Source of the DNA: Lachnospiraceae bacterium
Lineage (GTDB): Bacteria > Bacillota > Clostridia > Lachnospirales > Lachnospiraceae
Direction: 5' to 3'
Length of the DNA: 64,000 nucleotides
Assembly (NCBI GenBank): GCA_015057085.1
Contig: SVFB01000104.1
Coordinates: 1-64,000, forward strand
A program made the position numbers and the translations under genes. The notes below the pieces were generated by a model that made no database searches, was not told the origin of the DNA, and was given only the letters and a program-made list of their open reading frames with translations. Positions 1,362-14,389 of this stretch are shown here, piece after piece (within the stretch, counting starts at the first letter, position 1; every line of letters starts with the position of its first letter).

Positions 1362-3119
1362 TTACTCTTCTTTATGACGGTCTGGATTATCCGTCTTTGT
1401 GTTTATTTGTGTATCTTCTTGTGTCGCATTATTCTTGCGCTTCTTCACAAGATATACGATCAAAAGCACAATCAGCAATACCAGGATAATCAGTCCTAGG
1501 ATACAAGGAATCAAAATGCCTCTTTCTTTCAAATACGTTATCGGATTATTAGAAGATTTCGGCGTATTATCATCTTTGATTTCCACTTTTTCATTTGCGC
1601 CCGGATCATCAGGACCTGCTTCATTTCCGTTATCCGCTTCCGGGACATTATTCTCCGGAATCACTACGATGTCATCATCGCCATTTTCGTTATTGCCGTT
1701 ATTGCCGTTATTGCCGTTATCTCCGTTATCTCCGTTATCCGCGTTATTGCCATTATCACCGTTATCACCATTTGCATTTTGCGCTGAGTTATAGACAAAA
1801 TGAAATACGTTTTCTGCCGCATCTGCGGATAGCTTTACTGTCATATTATAGGATGATGGGACATAGCCTTCGATATAACGATAAGCAATAACCGGTTCAT
1901 CTCCGATATTTCCATAAAAGTTCTGACTTGGAGCGATTTCATTTCCCTCAGTATCTTCATAATGTACCGTATATTCAGTCAAATCGCCGGGGATTCCGTA
2001 TGCAATTACATAATCCTGATCTTCCACTACGGTAAATGCGGATTTTGATACAGTATTATTATCTCGGCCTGCCAAACGTAGTCCTTTGACATAATACTTA
2101 CTGTTATCATTCATGGTTACAGCAGTCTGCGAAGCACAGCTAAAAATGTCGCCATACTCTAATCCTGTAATCGTGATTTTCGTTTTATCCGAACTAATGG
2201 ACGACTGAACCTTCGCATCATTTCCGCTTGCTTTTAAAATCTGAATAGATGAAGCATTTGTAAATGTAGAATGGTTACCGGTAGAAATGGTAACAGTGTA
2301 AGTATAATTCTCTTTCGCATTCACATCCGATGCGCCAAGCATAAATGAGCACATTCCAATCAGCATTGCAACAATCATAGCAACGGAAGCTGCTTTTTTG
2401 CTGTTTTTTCTGTTTTTACGATTCTTTACAAGTCCAAAGAATAATAAGAAAATTCCAAGTCCAAGTAGAACCACAGCGCCCCAAAGGAACACATCTCCGG
2501 TTTGTACATTCTTAGTCTTTTTGATTTTATAGGTATCGGTAGGTGTTTCCACAGCGAAATTCATCATTAATTTGGCCAAAGTATCCTGATAAATATTTCC
2601 CTGGCTTTCACCGTCTAGGGTTATTACCAAATTGACTTTTGCTGTTTCCTCCGGTTTTAAAGATGCCACATAGAAGAAATCATCCAATGAGTTTGTAGCT
2701 TCATAGAGACCTTCTCCTAATTGTGCTTCTGTTGTCACATCATCGGCATCGCCACCAACAGTTGTACTGCTATAGATTAAAACAGTTTCACCTTCGTTTG
2801 GTGTAAATGACAAGATATATGAATATCCACCGTTTTCTGCAACGGACTGCGCATCTTCTAAAGAAGATAATACTGTATTGGACATATACCAATCAGTGGC
2901 TATATCGCTATTATTTGCAATATCGACTTCGAATGAAACAGTATCTCCCGGTTCCATTTCCGCAACTGAGACGGCGATGGATTTCGAATCAAAAGAGCTC
3001 ACCATTTTCTTGCCTGTAAATTCACAGGTTCCGGCATTGGTAATTGTCTCATTCGCATAAGCTGCCGTGCTTCCGATTAAGAGAAGCACCGAAGTCATGA
3101 ATACGAATAACTTTTTCAT
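1362..3119 (-). CDS. two-lobed membrane-anchored surface protein with internal QTGD sorting-like motif and MucBP domain
   Basis: 585 residues, start ATG after AGGAGG. Residues 1-22 are a signal peptide; 23-200 form a TasA-like extracellular domain (MEPGDTVSFEVDIANN at 55-70). Residues 204-209 read NVQTGD, followed by a hydrophobic stretch (210-232) and a basic KNRKNRKNSKK segment, exactly like a C-terminal sorting signal, but the frame continues. A second hydrophobic segment (243-263) ends in an ASDVNA signal-like site, then a second extracellular part with a MucBP-like domain (382-444), an Asn/Asp/Gly-rich repeat (450-480) and a final membrane helix (536-558) with a charged tail. Either it is a fusion of two surface proteins or a protein crossing the membrane several times with two outside domains. 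It is the last gene of the pilus operon, 18 bases after its neighbour. Function unknown; adhesion is an inference from MucBP. Confidence 0.75.
   Translation of the reverse strand: MKKLFVFMTSVLLLIGSTAAYANETITNAGTCEFTGKKMVSSFDSKSIAVSVAEMEPGDTVSFEVDIANNSDIATDWYMSNTVLSSLEDAQSVAENGGYSYILSFTPNEGETVLIYSSTTVGGDADDVTTEAQLGEGLYEATNSLDDFFYVASLKPEETAKVNLVITLDGESQGNIYQDTLAKLMMNFAVETPTDTYKIKKTKNVQTGDVFLWGAVVLLGLGIFLLFFGLVKNRKNRKNSKKAASVAMIVAMLIGMCSFMLGASDVNAKENYTYTVTISTGNHSTFTNASSIQILKASGNDAKVQSSISSDKTKITITGLEYGDIFSCASQTAVTMNDNSKYYVKGLRLAGRDNNTVSKSAFTVVEDQDYVIAYGIPGDLTEYTVHYEDTEGNEIAPSQNFYGNIGDEPVIAYRYIEGYVPSSYNMTVKLSADAAENVFHFVYNSAQNANGDNGDNGNNADNGDNGDNGNNGNNGNNENGDDDIVVIPENNVPEADNGNEAGPDDPGANEKVEIKDDNTPKSSNNPITYLKERGILIPCILGLIILVLLIVLLIVYLVKKRKNNATQEDTQINTKTDNPDRHKEE
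1688..1769 (-). repeat. 9-bp tandem repeat coding for an Asn/Asp/Gly-rich linker
   Basis: About nine imperfect copies of a 9-bp unit (CGTTATTGC and variants with TCTC, TCAC) lie in a row inside the surface-protein gene. The unit is in frame, so copy-number change would lengthen or shorten the DNG/NNG linker (about residues 450-480) without breaking the protein. Confidence 0.8.
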
Positions 3120-3137
3120 CTTGCACTCCTCCTATTT

Positions 3138-3929
3138 TTATCTTTTCAGTTTCATTGTTCCATTATCATCTACAGATACGTCAACACCCCATGCAGACAT
3201 AATTGCATCTTCTGCGTTATGGGTCTGTACAGCATCCACGTCTGCACGAAGTACAAAGGATACTCCGTCATAATCATAGGTGGTTACAGTTGATGAATAC
3301 TTATGTGTCACGCCATCTTCATCTGTAAAGGTATCTGTGGTTGTTGATTCGGATACTTTATATGCGATTTCTCCGCTGATATAAATATAATCAGTAAAAT
3401 CTGCAGTAGTTTCACCCGGTTCTAATATAGATGAATAATAAAGAACATTCTTTTCAGATGTTTGTGCAGAGGTATCTTCTAACCAACCGGAATTATCTGT
3501 AAATCCAATTACAATATTATCCGGATCAATATCTGTTCTCTTGGTTTGATTTCCCTCTTCGTCCACGTCTACCCAGTAATGATAAACTTCCACGCGAACG
3601 TATTCATCTATGGTTCCGCTATTTGTAACAGAAAGATTCTCGTCATATCTTTTATTTAGAATCAGTTGAGAATCACCGGCATCGCTAAGCATATTCGTAA
3701 GTAAAGCGCCTGTGGACTCATCCCAAGCATCATTGCTATGCAAATAGTTTCTCCAGCTTACCGGAGTATTGTTTTCGTTTAAGGTGACACCGATGGATTT
3801 AACATCCATTTGTGCAATATAATTTTGACTGTAATAGCTAAGCGCAGCGGCCGCCGTTCCGGATAGGGATACGCCAAGCATTACAACACCTGCTACAATT
3901 AACCATTTAGGAAGCTTGTTCTTATTCAT
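3138..3929 (-). CDS. TasA/CalY-like secreted protein
   Basis: About 263 residues. Of the two adjacent ATG codons (3932 and 3929) the second lies 6 bases from AGGAGG, so I prefer it; the start overlaps the stop of the upstream gene (TAA at 3922-3924), indicating translational coupling. A basic N-terminus and one hydrophobic segment are followed by an ALSYYSQNY region, like the signal region of SipW-dependent TasA/camelysin proteins. The rest is a polar domain rich in Asp, Thr and Tyr, with SVTNSGTIDEYVRVEV near the middle, a phrase typical of this family. No LPXTG or C-terminal membrane helix. Its role in fibre formation is inferred from family and from its place in the pilus operon. Confidence 0.7.
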   Translation of the reverse strand: MNKNKLPKWLIVAGVVMLGVSLSGTAAAALSYYSQNYIAQMDVKSIGVTLNENNTPVSWRNYLHSNDAWDESTGALLTNMLSDAGDSQLILNKRYDENLSVTNSGTIDEYVRVEVYHYWVDVDEEGNQTKRTDIDPDNIVIGFTDNSGWLEDTSAQTSEKNVLYYSSILEPGETTADFTDYIYISGEIAYKVSESTTTDTFTDEDGVTHKYSSTVTTYDYDGVSFVLRADVDAVQTHNAEDAIMSAWGVDVSVDDNGTMKLKR

Positions 3930-4476
3930 CATCCGCCTCCTCATTCTCGATTGTGGTATTTCCATTCTCGTCTATGCTATATTTGGCACTCATGGCCCAG
4001 TCCGCATTTTCTGCTGTATGTGGATTTCCGTTTTCGTCATACATTACAGGTGTACATTCCTGAACGACTATGATATTGAAATCGCTTTTCACATCCTCTG
4101 ATTTTTGGATGGATGCTACAATATTTTCTGTTGTCTCGCCTACTAATACAACTTCGCTGTAATAATAATAGCCATCATTTCCTAAAGACCAATTGGTTCC
4201 TTCCGCTGTCACTTCAAACTGACTTGCGCATAATACTTTGACTCTGACAAACACCGGTACTTCTCCGGTATTTTCAACAGAAATGGTCTTTTTCCAATTG
4301 GCATATTCTTCATGGATATCCGTTTGGCTGCCCAAACTAATCGGTACAGTGCCCTGCGCTGTCGCATATGTGGTGAAATATGCATAGATTCGCTCGGCAG
4401 CAAATCCCACAGAAAGTGCGAGCACCAGACAAACGATCCATGTGAACATTTTATGCTTTTGAAGTAATTGTTTCAT
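3922..4476 (-). CDS. small TasA/CalY-like secreted protein
   Basis: 184 residues with ATG after GGAGGACCGG. The N-terminal hydrophobic segment (about residues 12-28) leads to ERIYAYFTTYATAQG, close to the AYFTD-type mature start of TasA/CalY family proteins. The core contains SVENTGEVPVFVRVKV, the common phrase of this family, and the C-terminus is strongly acidic (EEADDE). There is no sorting signal. The stop overlaps the start of the next gene. Compared with TasA (about 260 residues) it is short. It may be a minor or accessory fibre component; this is inference. Confidence 0.7.
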   Translation of the reverse strand: MKQLLQKHKMFTWIVCLVLALSVGFAAERIYAYFTTYATAQGTVPISLGSQTDIHEEYANWKKTISVENTGEVPVFVRVKVLCASQFEVTAEGTNWSLGNDGYYYYSEVVLVGETTENIVASIQKSEDVKSDFNIIVVQECTPVMYDENGNPHTAENADWAMSAKYSIDENGNTTIENEEADDE

Positions 4477-4497
4477 CCGGTCCTCCTTTCCCAGTGA

Positions 4498-5511
4498 TTA
4501 TTCTTGTTGAGACCATTCCCAACTATAAATGGTCTCTCCTGTTGCCTGCTCATCTTCTTTTACGGAAAAATGATTTACCACACCTGTTCCAAAAACCAGG
4601 CTATGAGTATAATCGTTTGTAAATTCTGCTACATTATCTTCATTTGGAGTAATCTTTTCTAATGTAATCAATGCAGATGATGAAGTAATTGTATAAGCTG
4701 CTGTCGAATAGATTTCTTCGATTGTGACAGTGCTTCCTGCCGGAATACCTGTAATCGTAGCACTCTTTGCTCCTGCCTCATCAAAGGAAAGTCCAACCAC
4801 GTCAGAGAATACGACGTTTCCGTTTTCATCTGTAGCATTTACATCGAATACAAACATTGGTTGACCTGTTAAATTATCATATGTTTGCAGTGTTTTTGTA
4901 ATCGTCAAATCGGCTGTGAGCTCTGATTGCTTCGCCTTTAATTCTACTTCTGTAGAATTTGGAATAAATGCCATAGATGGAGTAAATTGATACTCGTGAT
5001 ACGGTGTTTTAACATTTGGTACTACAATTAAATATAAGCCCGGCACCACATCTACGGTTCCCTTTGGAATCTCTGATGCACTCTTTGCACTTATATTGCC
5101 GTTTGCTGTATAGGAAATCTCGTTTCCGGATTCTTTTGCATTCTCGATAAATTCCACTAAATCATTTGAATACTGAAGCATCAAATCCGATGTTACAATT
5201 TGTGTCTGATCGGCATTTGAAATCAGATAATCTATGGTATGCGTCTCATCTGATTCTGTTGCGAATGATGTAAATGCATCATTGATATCAAAATCACCAT
5301 TTGCATCCATCTGTGCGATTTGATAAAAATAAACATCTACATCTGTTTGATTCAAATCAGAAAAATATGCGGTATCATTTTCAGAAAATGTAACTGTAAC
5401 ATTCTTTGGATCTAAGTTGTAGGTTGCCATTGTATATGTTACAGGAATCAAGACAAGTCCCAAAACAATCAATGCGATATATGAAATTTTCTTCTTCCAT
5501 GATTGGTTCAT
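4498..5511 (-). CDS. pilin-like protein with N-terminal signal or anchor and no sorting motif
   Basis: 337 residues, ATG after AGGAG. Hydrophobic residues 10-30 form a signal peptide or anchor. The middle has PGLYLIVVPN, a phrase of Gram-positive pilin N-domains, and the C-terminal half (about 195-320) resembles an FctA/Spy0128-type isopeptide pilin domain (ADLTITKTL, then GIPAGSTVTIEE and VAEFTNDY). It ends in a hydrophilic tail with no hydrophobic helix, so it cannot be a normal sortase substrate; a QATGE string near the end has no membrane segment after it. It lies 29 bases after the sortase gene. Likely an accessory or basal subunit, or a truncated pilin; not certain. Confidence 0.65.
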   Translation of the reverse strand: MNQSWKKKISYIALIVLGLVLIPVTYTMATYNLDPKNVTVTFSENDTAYFSDLNQTDVDVYFYQIAQMDANGDFDINDAFTSFATESDETHTIDYLISNADQTQIVTSDLMLQYSNDLVEFIENAKESGNEISYTANGNISAKSASEIPKGTVDVVPGLYLIVVPNVKTPYHEYQFTPSMAFIPNSTEVELKAKQSELTADLTITKTLQTYDNLTGQPMFVFDVNATDENGNVVFSDVVGLSFDEAGAKSATITGIPAGSTVTIEEIYSTAAYTITSSSALITLEKITPNEDNVAEFTNDYTHSLVFGTGVVNHFSVKEDEQATGETIYSWEWSQQE

Positions 5512-5540
5512 GTCTCTCTCCTTTCAGCCAACCGTCTTGT

Positions 5541-6365
5541 TTATAAAAAACGATAGAAAATCTTTTTCTTAATCAATGATGATATCAAAATATACAAAAG
5601 CAGCAATATGATGCCAATTCCTACTGATACCAAAAGCGGATCCAATTGATTTGCTTCCGATACCACAGCAGAAGCTGCTTCCTCTGTCGGAATTCTGTGA
5701 CCGCGAACCAACAGTCGATGAGTGTTGATTCCATACGGCGTACAGGTAACAAGGGTACAATAGTCTTTTCCGGACTCAATTTTTAAATCATTTAATTCTT
5801 CCGGCAAGACGATACGAATCTGATCTACTTCATATGTCAGCGTCTGATCCAATACATGAATATAGAACAAATCGCCTTCTACCAATTGGTCGATATCCGT
5901 AAACAGTTTTGCCGAAGGCAATCCTCTGTGGCTGGATAATACGCAATGTGTGCTCTCTCCTCCAATCGGAAGCGAAGAGCCTTCGATATGGCCGACGCCT
6001 ATTTGTAAGACTTCTTCGTCAATGCCGTGATAAATCGGAATGGATACTGAGATACTTGGAATTTCAATATATCCCATAATTCCTGTTCCTGTTACATCCA
6101 ATGTGGATTCATATACCTGATACTCTTCTTCTGACAGCTCCCATCGATCTGTCTTTGAAAGAAGTGATTCGTTATAGGCTTTCGCATCGGATAGCATTTG
6201 CTCTACTTCTGTATTTGATAAATCATCTACTGTTTCGACATAGCTTGCAATTGCTTTCGATTGATGATAAGAATTCCACCAATCCGAGAATGTCGGATAC
6301 AGCAATAAGGACAAACCTAAGACGCCCAAAATTATGAGTATGATTATGGACAAATGTTTTTTCAT
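5541..6365 (-). CDS. class C (pilus-type) sortase
   Basis: 274 residues, ATG after AAGGAGAG. Membrane helices at both ends (about 5-24 and 244-264) are the arrangement of class C sortases. The catalytic triad is visible: His146 in LSSHRG, Cys208 in LVTCTPYG and Arg217 in NTHRLLVRG. The region before the core (about 70-95) would hold the lid; I do not see the usual DPF/DPW lid motif. The enzyme cleaves LPXTG between Thr and Gly and joins pilin subunits through a lysine. Its likely substrates are the LPSTG major pilin and the LPATG tip protein just upstream in the same operon. It is the only sortase in the window; a housekeeping sortase must be elsewhere. Confidence 0.93.
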   Translation of the reverse strand: MKKHLSIIILIILGVLGLSLLLYPTFSDWWNSYHQSKAIASYVETVDDLSNTEVEQMLSDAKAYNESLLSKTDRWELSEEEYQVYESTLDVTGTGIMGYIEIPSISVSIPIYHGIDEEVLQIGVGHIEGSSLPIGGESTHCVLSSHRGLPSAKLFTDIDQLVEGDLFYIHVLDQTLTYEVDQIRIVLPEELNDLKIESGKDYCTLVTCTPYGINTHRLLVRGHRIPTEEAASAVVSEANQLDPLLVSVGIGIILLLLYILISSLIKKKIFYRFL

Positions 6366-6390
6366 AGAGCTCTCCTTAGTGTTGTATCAA

Positions 6391-6426
6391 ATTGTGGGCT
6401 CCTGCGGATTTCCGCAGGCCCACAAT
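6391..6426 (-). other. strong hairpin between major pilin and sortase genes
   Basis: Arms 6391-6399 and 6418-6426 (ATTGTGGGC/GCCCACAAT) enclose a second perfect stem (CTGCGGA/TCCGCAG) separated by a 2-base bulge. No T-tract follows on the minus strand, so it is not a simple terminator. It lies right after the major pilin stop (6450) and before the sortase gene, where a processing or 3'-end-stabilising hairpin would raise pilin mRNA above the downstream genes. Confidence 0.7.
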
Positions 6427-6449
6427 AATGATTTTAATGTTTTATCGTT

Positions 6450-7988
6450 TTACTGTCTAGCACGAAGCTTAGAAACAGCAACAACACCAACACCTAATAC
6501 AAGGATTGCACCGATTACATAAATTGCAACGCGTCCGGCACCACCTGTTGAAGGAAGGATAGAACCACTCTGGTTAACGATGTCTGTAATCAAACCGCCG
6601 TCAATCATTCCATCAGTTTCTGATACTGTAAATTCGATTACATTTGCATCATCTGTAGCTGATAAGCTTTCAAGAGCCGGGTCATCAGAAATGATTGTAT
6701 GATCAGCAGTTACAGTAAATGTTATATCATCGATTGTATTGTATCCGTCAGGAGTCTTGGTCTCGCTTAATACATAAATACCATCATCGATTCCATCGAA
6801 AGTGAAGACTGTATCAGCCTGAGTCTTTACAACTCCGTAATTCTTGATGACATCTCCATTTTCGTTTACCTTAACAAGAGTAAATTCAGCTCCTGCCAAA
6901 GGCTGATTATTTTCATCTACCTTGTTTACGATTACCTTGTAAGTAAATGCAATAACAATATCCTTGTTGGTCTTACCTGTTCCCTCTCCGTTTGGATTGT
7001 TGGAGAACTCAAGATAAACTTCATTTGGGTTACCAGCTTCGCCAAGGATTGCATCCTCGTTTAAAGTTGCAGTATAGCGAGCAACGATCTTAGTATCCTT
7101 TGTGATTGTTGCAGATTCAACACTCTTTAAATCTTCAAAAGTAATTCTAACTACAGTTGAAGAATTCTCTCCTTCATTTACAGTTACTTCGTATTCATCA
7201 GCGTCGATTTCTGTTTCGGTAGTTCCATTGACTGCATAAACCTTAACATCTTCGTTGTAGGTTAAACCAACAGAAAGTGTATCAACAAATGAATAGAAAT
7301 ATGTATCATACTTGCTGTAATTGTCCGGTAAAGTACCAGTTAACTGATAAGGGATTTCATCTCCGATATCGTAGTCTGCAGAATCCTGCCAATCAGTGTA
7401 ATCTTCGTCTGTAGAATCGTTGATATCCTTGATTTTCTTTTCTACAGTAACTGTGTCAGACTTTGCATTTACCTGTACGTTTCCAACAACTTCCATGATA
7501 TATAAGGTGTAAGAATCACCTTCAGCATCATCAAGACTATTGTCCTTATCTTTTACAAGATAGTATCCTGAAGGAAGTCCGCTGATTGTATAGGTTGAAT
7601 TTGTTGCATTGTATTCACCTGATGTGTAAGCGTTTGCTGCTACAAGATATTCAGCAATTTTTGCTGCAGCTGCATCAGCCTGTGCGCTCTGAGATGTAAC
7701 TGACTCAAGTGATTTAGCATAATCAGTTGCCTTACCAGATGCGATTAATGCCTTCTGTCCGTCTGCTGAGATTCCGTTTCCCCAGGAAATATCAGATAAG
7801 GTTGTGCCATCTTCTGAAAGAGTTCCGGCAAGAATCTGATATGCCTCATAGGTATGTCCGTCAGCGTCATTCTTGATGGTAATTGAGTAATTACCGGTTT
7901 CATTTGTGTCTGCGAATGCAGTCACAGTCATTGCCATTGACAAAACAAATGCCAAAACCAATGATACTACTTTGGTAAACTTCTTCAT
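6450..7988 (-). CDS. LPSTG-anchored major pilin (SpaH/EbpB-like backbone)
   Basis: 512 residues. Signal peptide at 1-26 (ending TAFA), an N-terminal domain with SGLPSGYYLV (about 136-145), and a pilin-motif-like lysine at 176 (VQVNAKSD, aligning with the VYPKN motif of sortase pilins). Central isopeptide domains follow, then a CnaB/SpaA-like domain with an E-box near residue 409 (SETKTPDGYN). The C-terminus is a canonical sorting signal: LPSTG at 478-482, a hydrophobic helix and a basic RAR tail. It is the shaft subunit polymerised by the class C sortase next door. It starts 1 base after the tip-protein stop with a GGAG site inside the end of that gene. Assignment of Lys176 is by alignment in my head, not by structure. 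Confidence 0.92.
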   Translation of the reverse strand: MKKFTKVVSLVLAFVLSMAMTVTAFADTNETGNYSITIKNDADGHTYEAYQILAGTLSEDGTTLSDISWGNGISADGQKALIASGKATDYAKSLESVTSQSAQADAAAAKIAEYLVAANAYTSGEYNATNSTYTISGLPSGYYLVKDKDNSLDDAEGDSYTLYIMEVVGNVQVNAKSDTVTVEKKIKDINDSTDEDYTDWQDSADYDIGDEIPYQLTGTLPDNYSKYDTYFYSFVDTLSVGLTYNEDVKVYAVNGTTETEIDADEYEVTVNEGENSSTVVRITFEDLKSVESATITKDTKIVARYTATLNEDAILGEAGNPNEVYLEFSNNPNGEGTGKTNKDIVIAFTYKVIVNKVDENNQPLAGAEFTLVKVNENGDVIKNYGVVKTQADTVFTFDGIDDGIYVLSETKTPDGYNTIDDITFTVTADHTIISDDPALESLSATDDANVIEFTVSETDGMIDGGLITDIVNQSGSILPSTGGAGRVAIYVIGAILVLGVGVVAVSKLRARQ

Positions 7989-7989
7989 G

Positions 7990-10900
7990 TCATTTTCTCC
8001 TTTTTGTGATTTCTTTTTCTTTACCTTCTTTATAAATCAATCCGATTATCGTAATCAGAATGAAAGCAATTCCAATACAGATGGTCCATCTTGGGAGTCC
8101 AAGTCCACCTGTTGCCGGCAGCACATAAGTAACTGCCTGGTTTTTCAAAGTGACAGTTCCGCTTGTGATTGCCGTATCGATGCTGATACCGGACTGTTCA
8201 AGCGTAATCCATTCATATCCCGCTACAGAGCGCTCTGTCACATAATACAGACACTCAAAAGCGGTTTGTACACCATTTACTTCGTGATAAGTATAGCGAT
8301 CAAGATTTTCGAAGACATAATGCCAAGAATGATCATCCCCCGGCACAATCTCCACATTCTGCTGTACCACCGTATCTCTGGCAGCACTTTCATCTTCCTC
8401 ATCATAATAGGTATCGACTCTATGGAGATCTACATAGATGGAAGTGACATCCACATCTGTGGTTTCGTTTCCATCTCCGTCAAGCCATACTTTATTCACT
8501 TCAATCGAAACAGGTTTAATGTCATTTATGACATATTCTGTTTTGCCATGTGTCCAAAGGTTAACCGCCGAAATTCCACTCGGCAATGTCATGCTTCCAT
8601 CATCATCGAAGTAGAAATAATATCTGACCTCTTCAGTTGGCAGCTGATAGCCTTCCGGTGGCGTTGTTTCTTTGACATAATACAGCGTGTCCATCTTGAA
8701 CTGATATGCTGATGTATCATCGCCCTGATGATAGATTGCGAAGGTTCCATACTCATTGGTGATATAGGTCTTCTTTGTATCAACATCAGATTTACCATCC
8801 GTATATTCATATAATGTAAAGACGGCTCCGCTTAATGCCTTTCCGTAATTCCCCTTTTCTACTTTGTAGAAGGTGTAATGGTAAGTACTTGAAACGATTG
8901 CGCCATGTGTCGCTTTCGACCATTCGTACTCTTCTTTGTTATCCGTAGAGGTGTAATAGGTTCCGGAAATACTTGCGGTATTCTTCACACCTAAGGTCGG
9001 ATTATCTACACTTTCAAGGTTACCGGTTAAAATATAGTCATATTCAAAGATTAAATATGTACTATCAGGAATGGTTGCTGTAATACTATTTGCACAGCGA
9101 TCCACATCTCCGGTCACCTCTGCGCTATAGTAAGTGGAATTATATTCCCATGACCAATCAGTAATCTCGGTTTTGGTCACATTTCCATCTTCATCAACCG
9201 TACATGAGTAGAGTTTAACTGTATCCTGAACTAAAGCTACATCTCTATCTTCCTCATCCGGTTCTATTGCATAAGACAATACATCATCAAATGTAAGATG
9301 GTCACTTCCAGGAATCAAATCATCCGCTTCTTCATTAATCTTGATGGAATAATGAATTCTTTGAGCTACATCATCCCAGGTACCGTTTTTGCTGACTACT
9401 TCATAATTTTCTTTCCACCACTGTGTCTGGGAATCATCTAAAATCAAATCTCCCATTTGAATTGTGGCATAATTCGTAAAGGAATATTTATTTCCCTTTC
9501 GATAGTTCGAAATATCTGAAGTATTCACTTTGCAGTGATACGTTATGGCGATTGCAGCACTCGGATCCAGTGCATCACCTGACTTTCTGCGCAAGGTGAT
9601 TACAATCTTACGGGTTTCTTTGTCATAACTTAATGTATAAAGGATGTTTCCATCTGTGGTCCATTGGAAGACCTGTCCGGAAATTTCAGTTCCATCAGTT
9701 GGAATATCCGTGATATCTTTGCTCATCCATGAAACAGTGATATTAACATCAGATAATTCCACACCACTTGGCAAATAATCCGTAATGGTTGTCGATTCAT
9801 AATCATTTAGCGAATCTAGTGTTGCTGAAACTTTCCAGGTAAGTTCCCCCGAATCATTGACAACCTCAGTCTCTTCTTCTGAGCCATCTCCATTTGTCTT
9901 TTTGAAGGTTGCACGCTGATAATAATAGCTTGCTTCCTTCGTGATATCACCGATTGTAATCTTGTTCGTATAGCTTAGCTTGTCGGAAGAATTTACGATA
10001 TCTGCATTTGAATAATAAGTAAATGCAAAATTATTTCCATCTGCTAATGTGATATCCTCTGCCAATTCAAAGGAGAATCCAACCACATAATATTGATTGC
10101 AGAAGTCTTCTGTGATATCAGACCATTTGTATTCCTTATCCCAGCTGCTGAAATCCCTTGGCAAAGCATAGACCTTATAATTAGTGGTCTTTGTCGCCCA
10201 TGGATTTGTATTTGACAGCGTTGCAAAAATACTATTTAGCTGATCATAGCTAAAGTACTGAATACAACCATTTTGCCAATGGCTAAGGACGTCTTTAATC
10301 ACTGTTCCCTTGGCGATTCCGTTTTCCGTAATCGTAACCGTGGTGGTCCAGCCAATCGTTAATGTACTTAAATCTGCTGAGACGCTAGCACTTGTTGCAG
10401 TCTTGGTAACCTCAGTCTCTTCTTCCTCTTCTGAACCTGATTCGCCCGGATCACCATTATCCGGATAAACCGTAGCACTTGAAGACTCTCCTTCGATACT
10501 AACCGTATTGACAGTAGGATCTGTATCGCTTGCCAATGCAGTATTATAAGTGATTGTATAATAATTTGTATTTTGTCCGTTTGATATCGCCTTAAATTCA
10601 ATTCCGGTCAATTCTCCTGCGGAATTGTAAGTATATTGATAACCTTCATTCGGATAAATTTTAAAGTCCTGAATGTCATAACCGTTAAACATGTCATCTG
10701 TCAGCTTCATACCGGCAATATTAATGCGGTTTGAATTGACATAAATGGTCCACATGCCTCGATTGTTTGAATTATATCCTGACTTGGAAACGGTCAAACG
10801 ATTATCAATTTGGAAGCTGCTTGAATCGCTGTCTTCCACATATTTACCGGTATCGCTGTCGGATGATGAAACTTTAACATCATTTCTTCCTGTTACAATC

Positions 10901-11889
10901 TTGCCAACCGGTACACTCAAATCATAAACATAAGTGATTTGATAACCATTGCAAAGCAATGAACCGTCTGACTGAACTTCTCCTGCTTCTAACTGTGGAA
11001 GCTGGAATCGAATCGTACCATTTGATATGTATTCATTGGTATAAGAAACCGTCTCGCTTGATACGGAATCAATGGTATAAGTTGAATTCGTGGAATCCGC
11101 TTTTACTAAAACAGGATGAACCACAATCTCTTTTAAAGATGCAGAAGCATTATCACTTCCGGTCACTTTAAGCACATCTTCGAAATCAACAGTTCCCGGA
11201 GTTCCTGATGCAGAATAAGCAAGTACTGTATAGCTGACTGATTTCTTATCCGATGAAAGCTGATTTGATTTGTTTACCGTTAAGTCATAAGACTGATTAA
11301 CTTTTTCCAATGGAATGTCGATAACTAGATCATCAGTAAATCGAATATAAATCTTTTCTTCTTCGATAACAGTATTTTTACCAAAAATACCTGCGAAATA
11401 GACAGATCCAGAGACGGAACCGCTACCTAAATTGGTTACATATTTGTCATTAAATGAAATAATAACGGAATAAGTACCACTGCTGTTTTGCTGGAACTCA
11501 TAAGTTCCTGCAGTAATACCATTAGAATCATACAGAGTATATTCTGTATTTAAAATTGATGAATCCATCTCAATTCCTGATGGATACGTATAAGAAAACT
11601 CCTTGCTTGAGGAAGTTAATGTCCCCGCCGGAAGTTTAAAATCAATTTCAATGGAGTCTCCGATATAATAATCATTAATCGGATCGTATGTCACCCCTCC
11701 ATTGGAACTTACAGCTGTAAGATATGGAGTCAAATCACGAGTTACAGCGGAAGCAGGCTTGATAAGATGGTACAATGAAAAAGCCAATACAACAACACAA
11801 AGTGCAACTACGGCAGCCAGCCAAATGTTTCTTCTTTTGTGTCTTAACAGGCGAACCTCGCCAAGGCGCTCAATGTCCTTATTCATCAT
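7990..11889 (-). CDS. large LPATG-anchored pilus tip adhesin
   Basis: 1299 residues. A basic N-terminus and a hydrophobic segment (about 22-45, ending ASA) form the signal peptide. The long middle consists of repeated beta-rich collagen-binding-like folds (Cna-A/DUF11-like), including a Glu-rich linker EEEEETEV. About residues 1005-1127 form a SpaA/CnaB-like domain with an E-box (YYVKETTPPEGY) and 1128-1256 a Cna_B domain (SIEVNKVW). LPATG at 1257-1261 is followed by a membrane helix and a KRRK tail. Size and order before the backbone pilin match tip adhesins of SpaCBA-type pili. The start has tandem ATG codons (11889, 11886) after GGGGGG. The bound host or plant ligand cannot be told from sequence. 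Confidence 0.88.
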   Translation of the reverse strand: MMNKDIERLGEVRLLRHKRRNIWLAAVVALCVVVLAFSLYHLIKPASAVTRDLTPYLTAVSSNGGVTYDPINDYYIGDSIEIDFKLPAGTLTSSSKEFSYTYPSGIEMDSSILNTEYTLYDSNGITAGTYEFQQNSSGTYSVIISFNDKYVTNLGSGSVSGSVYFAGIFGKNTVIEEEKIYIRFTDDLVIDIPLEKVNQSYDLTVNKSNQLSSDKKSVSYTVLAYSASGTPGTVDFEDVLKVTGSDNASASLKEIVVHPVLVKADSTNSTYTIDSVSSETVSYTNEYISNGTIRFQLPQLEAGEVQSDGSLLCNGYQITYVYDLSVPVGKIVTGRNDVKVSSSDSDTGKYVEDSDSSSFQIDNRLTVSKSGYNSNNRGMWTIYVNSNRINIAGMKLTDDMFNGYDIQDFKIYPNEGYQYTYNSAGELTGIEFKAISNGQNTNYYTITYNTALASDTDPTVNTVSIEGESSSATVYPDNGDPGESGSEEEEETEVTKTATSASVSADLSTLTIGWTTTVTITENGIAKGTVIKDVLSHWQNGCIQYFSYDQLNSIFATLSNTNPWATKTTNYKVYALPRDFSSWDKEYKWSDITEDFCNQYYVVGFSFELAEDITLADGNNFAFTYYSNADIVNSSDKLSYTNKITIGDITKEASYYYQRATFKKTNGDGSEEETEVVNDSGELTWKVSATLDSLNDYESTTITDYLPSGVELSDVNITVSWMSKDITDIPTDGTEISGQVFQWTTDGNILYTLSYDKETRKIVITLRRKSGDALDPSAAIAITYHCKVNTSDISNYRKGNKYSFTNYATIQMGDLILDDSQTQWWKENYEVVSKNGTWDDVAQRIHYSIKINEEADDLIPGSDHLTFDDVLSYAIEPDEEDRDVALVQDTVKLYSCTVDEDGNVTKTEITDWSWEYNSTYYSAEVTGDVDRCANSITATIPDSTYLIFEYDYILTGNLESVDNPTLGVKNTASISGTYYTSTDNKEEYEWSKATHGAIVSSTYHYTFYKVEKGNYGKALSGAVFTLYEYTDGKSDVDTKKTYITNEYGTFAIYHQGDDTSAYQFKMDTLYYVKETTPPEGYQLPTEEVRYYFYFDDDGSMTLPSGISAVNLWTHGKTEYVINDIKPVSIEVNKVWLDGDGNETTDVDVTSIYVDLHRVDTYYDEEDESAARDTVVQQNVEIVPGDDHSWHYVFENLDRYTYHEVNGVQTAFECLYYVTERSVAGYEWITLEQSGISIDTAITSGTVTLKNQAVTYVLPATGGLGLPRWTICIGIAFILITIIGLIYKEGKEKEITKRRK

Positions 11890-11912
11890 GCTTCCCCCCT
11901 TTCCATGATCTG

Positions 11913-12626
11913 TTAATCAATTATTCCAATATCCGTAAATGGCCAAATGCAAAAAACCACTTTTCCAACAAGCTGTTCCTCGGAAATGCAACCGATTGTA
12001 GAATTTCTTGAATCCAAAGAAACACTACGGTGGTCTCCCATCACAAAGATTTTGGATTCCGGAACCTGATACGGAAAATCAAGATTGCAATCGCCTAATG
12101 CTTTGTCAATCAAATAAGGTTCGTCCAGTTCAATATCATTTACATAAACTGTACCATCTTCGGAAATATTGACCCAATCGCCTGATGTGGCAATCACTCT
12201 TTTTACCAGGATTTTATTATTGTAATAAAAAGCAATGATATCTCCTGTTTCAAATTTTGCATTTTTCTGAGTCAGTAGGATTTGACCTTCTTCCAATGTC
12301 GGTGACATGGATGAGCCAGTCACTTGTAATACAGGCATAAATACATAGGAAATGATGATTGCCAGTGCCGCAACAACCAACAAAGTACCGATTGTATTAA
12401 ATAAGGCTCCTACAAATTTTTGATTGTATTTGACTCTTCGAAGTTCCTGACGAAGTTCTTTGATTTGCAGATCGCGGTTTTCGTCGTCTTCTGAGAGAAT
12501 CTCGTTGATTGCCTCTTCCTGCTTTTCTATTTTTGACTTTTTCAGTTTAGTCTTCTTTGTTTGTGTCTTCAGTTTGGAGCGTTTCAACTTTGTTAATGTA
12601 CCTTTCAAGTTTGCTAATGACCTCAT
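11913..12626 (-). CDS. lepB: signal peptidase I, pilus-locus copy with long basic N-terminus
   Basis: 237 residues. A lysine-rich, coiled-coil-prone cytoplasmic extension (1-70) precedes one membrane helix (about 74-98). Catalytic Ser106 is in GSSMSPT, the general-base Lys142 in LVKRVIA, and the conserved GDHRSVSLDSR box is at 198-207. This is the bacterial Ser/Lys type, not the SipW (ER-type) form. It removes signal peptides of exported proteins and probably processes the pilins and TasA-like proteins of this operon. The ATG at 12626 lies inside the upstream gene (80-base overlap in another frame) and has a weak ribosome site; internal TTG starts at codons 8 or 14 are possible, so the exact N-terminus is uncertain. 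The 3' end is 23 bases before the tip adhesin. Confidence 0.9.
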   Translation of the reverse strand: MRSLANLKGTLTKLKRSKLKTQTKKTKLKKSKIEKQEEAINEILSEDDENRDLQIKELRQELRRVKYNQKFVGALFNTIGTLLVVAALAIIISYVFMPVLQVTGSSMSPTLEEGQILLTQKNAKFETGDIIAFYYNNKILVKRVIATSGDWVNISEDGTVYVNDIELDEPYLIDKALGDCNLDFPYQVPESKIFVMGDHRSVSLDSRNSTIGCISEEQLVGKVVFCIWPFTDIGIID

Positions 12627-12783
12627 TAATCCGTCCGGAATTTTTGAGTTCTTTCTCTAAGTCTGTCACATGTTGCTTTACTTCTGACAGTTCCTTGCGC
12701 AAATGTTCGACTTCTTTGCTTCTGTCCAGAAGCATCTCTAACAATTCGCTTCTAGATAATTTCTTTAGATCACGCTGTTCCAT
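12547..12783 (-). CDS. small coiled-coil protein heading the pilus operon
   Basis: 78 residues from ATG at 12783, chosen because GAGGAA lies about 9 bases upstream; a longer frame reaching 12876 would run through the promoter. Heptad-like charged sequence (SRSELLEMLLDRSKEVEHLRKEL, broken here by family variation) predicts an almost continuous alpha-helical coiled coil with no signal peptide, so it is cytoplasmic. It overlaps the signal peptidase gene by 80 bases, and the signal peptidase also carries a coiled-coil N-terminus, so the two may pair. Function not known. Confidence 0.7.
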   Translation of the reverse strand: MEQRDLKKLSRSELLEMLLDRSKEVEHLRKELSEVKQHVTDLEKELKNSGRINEVISKLERYINKVETLQTEDTNKED

Positions 12784-12825
12784 GTCTAACGCTTCCTCAT
12801 ATCTTTGTTTTTCACATGTAAATTT

Positions 12826-12853
12826 ATAATAGCGCGATTTTTTTATATTGAAA
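12826..12853 (-). promoter_or_regulatory. likely promoter of the pilus operon
   Basis: TTTCAA (12848-12853) and TATTAT (12826-12831) on the minus strand, 16 bases apart, about 43 bases before the first ATG of the operon. The -35 box is weak, so an activator may help. Nothing else promoter-like was seen inside the operon. Confidence 0.45.
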
Positions 12854-12933
12854 AGACCTTTTTCGCATTTTTGCAATAAAATACAATTCTTGTGACTTTC
12901 ATGTGACTATTGTTTAAATTTTTTGCAAAATTT

Positions 12934-12991: not shown

Positions 12992-14389
12992 TTAAAAAGC
13001 TAGTTTTTCTTCAAAATATGCTTTTAAATCTTCAATTTTCACACGCTCCTGCTCCATTGTATCACGATCACGAACAGTTACGCATCCATCTGTTTCTGAA
13101 TCAAAATCGTAAGTTACACAATAAGGTGTTCCGATTTCATCCTGACGGCGATATCTCTTTCCGATGTTTCCTCTATCATCGAATTCGCAGTTATAATATT
13201 TGCTGAGTTCTGCAAAAATCTTTTCTGCACCTTCGTTTAATTTCTTTGAAAGCGGAAGCACACCAACCTTAACCGGCGCAAGCGCTGGATGGAAATGCAT
13301 AACAGTACGCACATCCGGCTTTTCATCTGTTCCGATATTTTCTTCGTCATATGCTGCGCAAAGGAATGCGAGAACCACACGATCTGCACCAAGTGAAGGC
13401 TCGATTACATATGGCAAATACTTTTGATTTAATTCATCATCAAAATAAGTCATATCCTGTCCTGAAACATTCTGATGCTGAGTCAAATCGTAATCGGTAC
13501 GGCTTGCGATTCCCCAAAGTTCACCCCATCCAAATGGGAATAAGAACTCGATATCGGTTGTTCCTGTAGAATAGAATGATAATTCTTCCGGATCATGATC
13601 ACGCAAACGCATCTCATCTTCTTTGATTCCGAGAGAAAGTAACCAATCGCGGCAGAATCCTCTCCAATAAGAGAACCATTCATCCTGTGTTCCCGGCTTG
13701 CAGAAGAATTCAAGCTCCATCTGCTCAAACTCACGTGTTCTAAACGTAAAGTTACCAGGTGTAATCTCGTTACGGAAAGACTTTCCAATCTGTCCGATTC
13801 CGAAAGGAACCTTCTTACGTGATGTTCTTTGAACATTCTTGAAGTTTACGAAAATACCCTGGGCTGTTTCAGGACGAAGATAAACAGTATTCTTCGCATC
13901 CTCTGTAACACCCTGGAATGTTTTAAACATCAGGTTAAACTGTCTGATATCGGTGAAGTTATGCTTGCCGCAAGTAGGACATGGAATATTGTTTGATTCA
14001 ATAAAATCCACCATTTCCTCGTTGCTCCATCCATCAACGGATGATTTTAATTCGATTCCTTTTTCAGATGCATAATCTTCAATAATCTTGTCAGCGCGGA
14101 AACGTTCATGACATTCCTTACAATCTAAAAGCGGATCAGAGAAGCTTCCTAAGTGTCCGGAAGCAATCCAGGTCTGAGGATTCATAAGGATGGCGCAGTC
14201 TACACCAACATTATAAGGATTCTCCTGGATAAATTTCTTCCACCAAGCCTTCTTTACATTGTTCTTAAGCTCTACACCAAGATTTCCGTAATCCCAGGTA
14301 TTTGCCAAACCACCATAGATTTCTGATCCCGGATATACAAAACCTCTTGCCTTTGCTACCGAAACAATTTTATCCATTGTTTTTTCCAT
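12992..14389 (-). CDS. glyS: glycyl-tRNA synthetase, single-chain type
   Basis: 465 residues, close to the usual 460 of the dimeric alpha2 bacterial GlyRS (glyQS type), not the two-gene alpha/beta form. It charges tRNA-Gly with glycine in the cytoplasm. Visible: a cysteine pair set at C90/C93 and C137/C140 (zinc-knuckle-like insertion), class II motif 2 [10 protein letters not shown] and motif 3 [10 protein letters not shown], and a C-terminal anticodon-binding domain beginning near [13 protein letters not shown]. The start ATG follows AGGAG at 11 bases; Met5 is an alternative. It lies 21 bases after the lipoprotein gene and probably shares its promoter at 15257-15285. A terminator follows. 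Confidence 0.97.

Follow-up and report, generated by a model that had tools for sequence, protein, structure and literature searches.

Results

The operon and its genes

The window, the whole stretch of 64,000 nucleotides analysed here (contig SVFB01000104.1 of the Lachnospiraceae bacterium assembly GCA_015057085.1), carries close to its start an operon in which genes for a sortase-assembled pilus are followed by genes for proteins that resemble TasA. The operon runs on the minus strand from 12876 to 1362 and comprises nine open reading frames (ORFs), the number given in a preliminary description of this DNA. All point the same way and either overlap their neighbours or lie at most 84 nucleotides from them. 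The set is plausibly transcribed as one unit, although promoter- and terminator-like sites occur about as often as chance would give (seven terminator-like sites found, 6.5 expected). From 5' to 3' the genes, with two of their parts, are as follows.

12547–12876, minus strand: g1, small coiled-coil protein of 109 amino acids with a TTG start (LSRSELLEMLLDRSKE), at the head of the operon
11913–12626, minus strand: g2, bacterial-type signal peptidase I (TIGR02227, 126 bits, cut-off 47; TIGR02228, 30.8 bits)
7990–11889, minus strand: g3, tip pilin or adhesin of 1299 amino acids with a SpaA domain and a C-terminal LPATG signal, assigned from family matches and sequence
6450–7988, minus strand: g4, major (shaft) pilin with a C-terminal LPSTG signal (NF033902, 95.6 bits, cut-off 95; GramPos_pilinBB; SpaA)
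5541–6365, minus strand: g5, class C (pilus) sortase, SrtC (NF033745, 290 bits, cut-off 160)
4498–5511, minus strand: g6, pilin-like protein of 337 amino acids with DUF5979 and no sorting signal, its N-terminal part akin to signal-bearing pilins of operons without TasA-like genes
4501–4908, minus strand: dock domain of g6 (residues about 202–337), DUF5979-like with a tail, found also as the C-terminus of giant adhesins in shaft-less relatives
3922–4476, minus strand: g7, BsaA/TasA-like protein of 184 amino acids with AYFTT at the signal-peptide junction (TIGR04090 below cut-off; hhalign to g8, 97%)
3138–3932, minus strand: g8, TasA/BsaA-like protein (hhalign to TasA, 95%)
2388–3119, minus strand: g9a part of the fused last ORF, with a TasA-like domain, sorting signal, hydrophobic stretch and Lys/Arg tail (hhalign to TasA, 96%)
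2493–2507, minus strand: VQTGD sorting-signal motif of g9a (T207 and D209 invariant in a 14-row alignment)
1362–2384, minus strand: g9b part of the fused last ORF, with a MucBP-like domain (below cut-off here, above it in L030) and a C-terminal membrane anchor

The LPATG signal of the tip and the LPSTG signal of the shaft, encoded beside a class C sortase, identify the genes of a class C sortase pilus, and the preliminary description holds in this respect, with NF033745 and NF033902 both over their cut-offs.

A gene set conserved across relatives

Relatives of the operon were collected in three overlapping locus sets, which are not summed (15 pairs of loci have an identical g9a ORF). Gene presence was scored by six-frame profile searches, and loci with short flanks (1 of 13, 13 of 55 and 22 of 80) were removed before presence and order were counted. 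The named set holds the best 80 of 206 contigs with a g8 relative in the GTDB species set and includes Blautia, Roseburia, Acutalibacter, Neglectibacter and an Erysipelotrichaceae metagenome-assembled genome. Within the genus, g8 relatives occur in 13 of 60 genomes. Of 397 family genomes, 65 have a g9a match at E 0.001, and in 45 of these it reaches E <1e-10. One genome, G212, has several g9a operons close together on contig C14 (L109, L115).

All 58 named full-flank loci, found through g8, contain g6, g7, g9a and g9b; SrtC and the shaft are each present in 52, a SipW-type peptidase in 54 and a class B sortase in 18. The 42 loci found through g9a contain SrtC in 26 cases, g8 in 40, g9b in 39 and SipW in 30. 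The preliminary description had proposed a check of the nine-gene order in other Clostridia; the order SrtC-g6-g7-g8-g9a-g9b is invariant wherever all six genes are present (52 of 52, 26 of 26 and 10 of 10 loci of the three sets). SrtC occurs in 34 of the 45 genomes with a strong g9a match and in 94 of the 352 other family genomes, as counted from the matches listed (Fisher p 3e-10, a test that ignores relatedness).

As controls we hand-picked, among the matches listed, 57 SrtC loci whose genomes belong to the family but show no strong match to g9a. The choice mostly omitted genomes with weak or partial g9a matches, retained two with matches to the sorting signal only (G346 and G195) and included some short contigs. 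None of the 57 carries g7, g8, g9a or g9b at E 1e-4, and a SipW-type match is found in one. When the first 20 controls were searched alone, L268 gave a weak g9a-profile match (5e-5), and the ORF there is a g6-type pilin ending in VKTGD. The view that the downstream genes are conserved with the sortase genes is thus borne out by their presence beside SrtC in most g8-found loci and their absence from the controls.

The last ORF (1362–3119, 585 amino acids), which the preliminary description had treated as one gene, unites two genes that most relatives keep separate, g9a (about 240–280 amino acids) and g9b (about 320–360 amino acids, MucBP-like, with its own signal peptide and a membrane anchor). 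The fused form occurs in 2 of 58, 0 of 42 and 1 of 12 loci of the three sets. Agathobacter ruminis (L020 = L125) carries the same fusion as the window, which indicates that it is genuine and rules out an assembly error as its source.

The wall signal lies on g9a and not on g6

A script recognised a sorting signal, consisting of a [V,P,I,A][K,Q,R]TGD motif, a hydrophobic stretch and a basic tail, at the C-terminus of 116 of 120 g9a homologues (TGD itself in 109 of 120) and in none of the 115 g7 or 120 g8 homologues. For g6, a sorting signal is present in only 1 of 104 homologues that are linked to TasA-like genes, as opposed to 33 of 37 counterparts in control loci (Fisher p 1e-26; the loci are related and the test ignores kinship). 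For this count the g6 profile was rebuilt with the first control proteins; a g6-type match occurs anywhere in 41 of the 57 controls, and the 37 are those with a complete ORF within 1.8 kilobases (kb) of SrtC. Among the 33 signal-bearing control proteins, 24 have LPQTG or a similar motif and nine have [KR]TGD as on g9a, with L313 and L314 as loose motif matches. The four controls scored as signal-less are L310 and L327 (in both of which a signal is visible by eye), L343 (its ORF continues into a sortase domain) and one whose sequence is partly masked. In L343 (5046–6386) a single ORF matches the rebuilt g6-type pilin profile and ends in a PF04203 sortase domain (residues 333–446), a possible pilin-sortase fusion.

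The original g6 profile matches 28 of 35 control proteins, and 23 of these matches end before position 200 of its 335. Taken with the signal counts, these matches suggest that one and the same kind of pilin bears a wall signal where no TasA-like genes follow it and none where they do. In a FastTree phylogeny of 151 SrtC proteins, the link to TasA-like genes changes at least 11 times. We infer that g6 is the base pilin of the pilus.

A C-terminal dock domain replaces the signal of g6

Where control pilins bear the sorting signal, the TasA-linked g6 proteins have a C-terminal domain and tail, here called the dock. The tail motif N[HRAKQY]F..W is found in 73 of 104 TasA-linked g6 proteins and in 0 of 35 controls (35 of the 37 above), and no terminal dock-profile match occurs in the 57 control loci. 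The dock also forms the C-terminus of proteins of 1594–3641 amino acids without a sorting signal, in six distinct loci of five genomes that have neither SrtC nor a shaft. These giant proteins (L074 = L166, L159, L181, L196, L104, L105) stand directly before g7-g8-g9a-g9b, and the three that were tested all contain Cna_B domains. Genome G289 has four g9a loci, two of which (L104 and L105) encode such proteins. Because the dock takes the place of the pilin anchor and ends otherwise unanchored giant adhesins ahead of the same genes, it is best explained as a predicted connector to the TasA-like proteins.

A vWA-domain adhesin in L037 was considered as a further carrier of the dock and rejected, as it has no dock-profile match; by eye no membrane anchor is seen at its end. 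L037 belongs to a group of loci (with L031, L032 and L038) in which a regulator-like gene, the gene of a large surface protein (the vWA protein in L037) and SipW- and TasA-like genes come after g8-g9a-g9b, with no class C sortase in the stretch seen.

Likeness of g7, g8 and g9a to TasA

Profiles of g7, g8 and g9a were built from the fetched loci and compared profile to profile (hhalign) with a TasA/CalY profile made from 24 proteins that PF12389 matches in other genomes of the phylum (20 rows without the signal peptide). With signal peptides removed on both sides, the probabilities were 96.3% for g9a, 95.0% for g8 and 41.4% for g7, and only 0.2–0.5% for the controls g6, g9b, shaft, SrtC and SipW; an earlier run with another alignment setting gave 65% for g7 and 95% for g8 and g9a. 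The g9a alignment spans the 'PGD...N' region and the late 'N.YQ' region. Since g7 and g8 match each other at 97%, g7 is tied to the same group, and against TIGR04090 (BsaA, a SipW-dependent matrix protein; cut-off 60) g7 scores 31.9 bits (E 1e-7) and g8 20.7 bits (E 3e-4). Judged by these profiles, g8 and g9a belong to the TasA superfamily and g7 does so less surely; we term all three TasA-like and do not count them as members of a curated family. A relationship of g6 to TasA, also considered, is ruled out (0.3% without the signal region).

A sequence search of the PDB with g9a returned two TasA structures as top matches (5of1, E 0.19; 8aur, E 0.24), which is suggestive only, and the same search with g7 and g8 returned nothing useful. 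In the AlphaFold model of g8, residues 10–44 score below 50 in the predicted local distance difference test (pLDDT); about half or more of this segment belongs to the signal peptide, and the underlying alignment comprised 14 rows, which makes its fit with a free donor strand a weak one.

Candidate processing and anchoring enzymes

The preliminary description had spoken of a private signal peptidase. The operon does encode one, g2, which is of the bacterial signal peptidase I type and not a SipW. By eye it has the stretches GSSMSPTL and LVKRVIA, whose Ser and Lys, respectively, we take to be the catalytic pair. In most relatives a SipW-type peptidase follows g9b, and 54 of the 58 named loci contain one.

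In six loci the SipW-type domain is fused to a class B sortase in a single ORF (L023:1869-3206, L024:1859-3196, L025:701-1972, L029:2359-3648, L030:1138-2514 and L037:8128-9396). Five of the six were examined with hmmscan and gave 78–93 bits for TIGR02228 (all above the cut-off of 52) and 144–161 bits for TIGR03064 (three of five above the cut-off of 154). An alignment of all six has invariant Ser43 and His84 in the peptidase part and His334, Cys428 and Arg434 in the sortase part, presumably the catalytic residues. At least three further full-length fused ORFs without an internal stop occur among the 397 family genomes (G212, G293 and G349).

By PF04203, the window genome has two sortases, the SrtC of the operon and a class B sortase on contig C10 (TIGR03064, 169 bits). 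Among the unfused matches listed from the 397 genomes, the latter (351 bits) and the class B sortase of G040, a genome of the same genus (364 bits), score highest against the fusion profile. From the neighbouring and fused genes of relatives, we conclude that the C10 class B sortase probably anchors g9a.

Also on C10, about 4.5 kb before the class B sortase, lies an ORF (L039:4569-5087) that matches the SipW profile at E 5e-13; Pfam and NCBIfam do not detect it, and by eye it seems to lack the catalytic stretches SGSMEP and THRV. This ORF follows SecA2-type and GtfA-type genes of an accessory Sec system, and the class B sortase follows a BTAD-domain regulator.

Genomic site

The operon is flanked by glyS (12992–14389; NF003211, 692 bits) and by ppdK (3–1112, start 1112), the latter named through its homologue in L020 (TIGR01828, 1372 bits). 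In 14 of the 30 ppdK loci examined within the genus, glyS stands directly before ppdK, which argues that the operon is an accessory insert at this site. Homologues of g1 are found in L021, L023, L024, L025, L027 and L028, and in several loci of the genus g1 stands at or near the operon head.

Discussion

The operon brings together the genes of two known kinds of surface fibre. We propose, with moderate confidence, that its products form a hybrid surface fibre in which a sortase pilus, or an adhesin in its place, is docked on a wall-anchored TasA-type foot. Of the roles that the preliminary description had offered for the TasA-like proteins, namely base, coat or second polymer, the base is favoured: g9a bears the wall signal that g6 lacks, and a common C-terminal domain lies where a link to the TasA-like proteins would be needed. 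Beyond that description, we find that g9a has a sorting signal and g6 has none, that the last ORF is a fusion, and that relatives carry genes for SipW and for class B sortases.

In the proposed assembly, SrtC would link the tip g3 and the shaft g4 and join the shaft to g6, the end of the pilus, whose own cell-wall anchor has seemingly been lost. On the side of the wall, g8 and g7 would be built up on g9a, probably through donor-strand exchange of the kind known from TasA, into a structure that could be short or long, and the class B sortase from contig C10, the only other sortase found in the genome, would fix g9a to the wall. The C-terminal dock of g6 would then bind the outermost TasA-like subunit, perhaps as the last donor strand. 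The peptidase g2 would cut the signal peptides, standing in for the SipW-type peptidase of most relatives, and g9b could act as a membrane-held helper or hand-over site. In shaft-less relatives, the giant adhesin would bear the dock itself.

Several observations weigh against a docked hybrid fibre. The evidence is comparative throughout, and the contacts between the proteins are predicted from it. PF12389, the Pfam family of TasA and camelysin, has no match in the window genome, and no curated TasA cut-off (PF12389, TIGR04090) was reached; the TasA/CalY likeness claimed by the preliminary description therefore stands for g8 and g9a by profile comparison and is much less certain for g7, and the search with curated models did not bear it out. 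With the signal region kept, g7 matches the TasA profile at 88.4%, but so, over 15–21 columns, do g9b (56.9%), g6 (24.9%) and the shaft (24.1%), and because unrelated controls rise too the value for g7 counts little. Fold searches with middling AlphaFold models of g9a and g8 list TasA alongside numerous beta-sandwich proteins whose scores are tied or low, and are not used as proof. (Their rows include parts of clostridial toxins, which we read as common beta-sandwich geometry.) The signal test is a loose one and picks up 32 of 110 g9b proteins as well; most of the remaining g9b proteins have a membrane anchor. The loss of the signal from g6 may reflect few evolutionary events; only two independent contrasts lie on supported branches of the SrtC tree, and although they almost always point the way that was predicted, they are too few to reach significance (sign test, p 0.5). 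No SipW-type peptidase exceeds its cut-off in the window genome, so that in this lineage g2 is the enzyme that probably cuts the signal peptides. In C. perfringens, deletion of srtB had no effect on BsaA polymers, according to the part of the report available (PMC7395162). Finally, TasA modules occur without a pilus. Of the 42 loci found through g9a, 16 have no SrtC and 14 of these were scored as having no g6 (one of the 14, L104, bears the dock on a giant ORF that starts outside the counted stretch); modules with neither gene include L110–L114 and L117–L120. The dock is therefore not the sole partner of the TasA-like module.

This independence is what would be expected if the operon encoded two separate fibres, one a pilus that has no base pilin and is fixed through its shaft signal, the other a TasA-like fibre that includes g6 and has a wall anchor of its own, with only control and signal-peptide processing in common. 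Each half is indeed found alone: among the matches listed, SrtC occurs in 94 of the 352 family genomes that lack a strong match to g9a, and the TasA module stands in the 16 SrtC-less loci just mentioned; L110, L111 and L112 pair the module with SipW in the absence of SrtC, and L135 has g6 to g9b with SipW but neither SrtC nor a shaft. However, if the fibres never touched, one would not expect g6 to have a dock in place of a wall signal, nor giant adhesins directly ahead of TasA-like genes to end in one, and we regard two separate fibres as the less likely reading. Less probable still is a reading in which the TasA-like proteins help assembly in the manner of TapA or CapP, maintaining the shape of g6 or of the tip, and g9a is a wall-anchored surface protein of the usual kind. 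Both TapA and CapP count as accessory proteins in TasA systems, as far as the available parts of the reports go (PMC9674648, PMC13082335), and g7 is small and weakly TasA-like, but a helper role leaves unexplained why g9a bears the signal in 116 of 120 cases while 103 of 104 g6 proteins lack it. That the likeness to TasA stems from signal peptides and the gene order from a local accident, as the weak curated matches and the rise of unrelated controls with the signal region kept could suggest, is highly improbable and already contradicted, since the likeness of g8 and g9a persists without signal peptides, with five controls negative, and the order is kept in three locus sets whose genes are absent from the controls.

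A docked hybrid fibre would share features with several known systems. Sortase-assembled pili have the same LPATG tip, LPSTG shaft, class C sortase and pilin-like third gene after the sortase; in the window, by contrast, the third pilin lacks a sorting signal and has the dock at its C-terminus, and the wall signal is on a TasA-like protein three genes on. The TasA-TapA-SipW system of Bacillus subtilis and the TasA-CalY-CapP system of B. cereus have TasA-like proteins, and most relatives of the operon have an adjoining SipW-type peptidase; the difference is that here a TasA-like member carries a sortase signal and is linked to a sortase pilus. In the portions of the reports available, the B. 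cereus system is described as sortase-independent (PMC13082335), and B. subtilis TapA is thought to aid anchoring while TasA assembles by donor-strand exchange (PMC9674648). The nearest known relative, srtB-sipW-bsaABCRSD of Clostridium perfringens, combines BsaA-type proteins, sipW and an adjoining class B sortase gene, but the available part of its description mentions no class C pilus and no peptidase-sortase fusion (PMC7395162). The streptococcal FCT pilus locus likewise has a signal-peptidase gene, sipA, within a pilus locus; its product is called signal peptidase-like and essential for polymerisation, and the part available names no TasA-like genes (PMC4049620), whereas g2 of the window keeps its Ser and Lys. 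For Mediterraneibacter gnavus, eight sortases are described, and SipW, TasA and a pilus are absent from the available text (PMC13121745). Among the matches listed in a literature search of titles and the starts of abstracts, with subscription journals mostly outside it, we found no sortase pilus with TasA-like proteins, no TasA with a sortase signal and no SipW-sortase fusion; nor, within the same scope, did any match join TasA with a base pilin.

The scheme may extend beyond this operon. We give about even chances to a general, non-covalent mode of fixing in Gram-positive bacteria, in which a donor-strand TasA-type foot, anchored through g9a, would take the dock of a pilus or of a giant adhesin, and in which the fusion of SipW with a class B sortase would mature and anchor the foot in one step.

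In summary, sortase pili, which are covalent, and TasA-type fibres, built by donor-strand exchange, have been treated as separate solutions, and a conserved operon joins the two. It allows the idea of a mixed fibre to be tested in gut Clostridia, since the named loci include Agathobacter, Blautia, Roseburia and their relatives. It also names a candidate class of substrates for class B sortases and suggests a role for an unnamed C-terminal domain, together with a likely reason for the fusions of SipW with a sortase.

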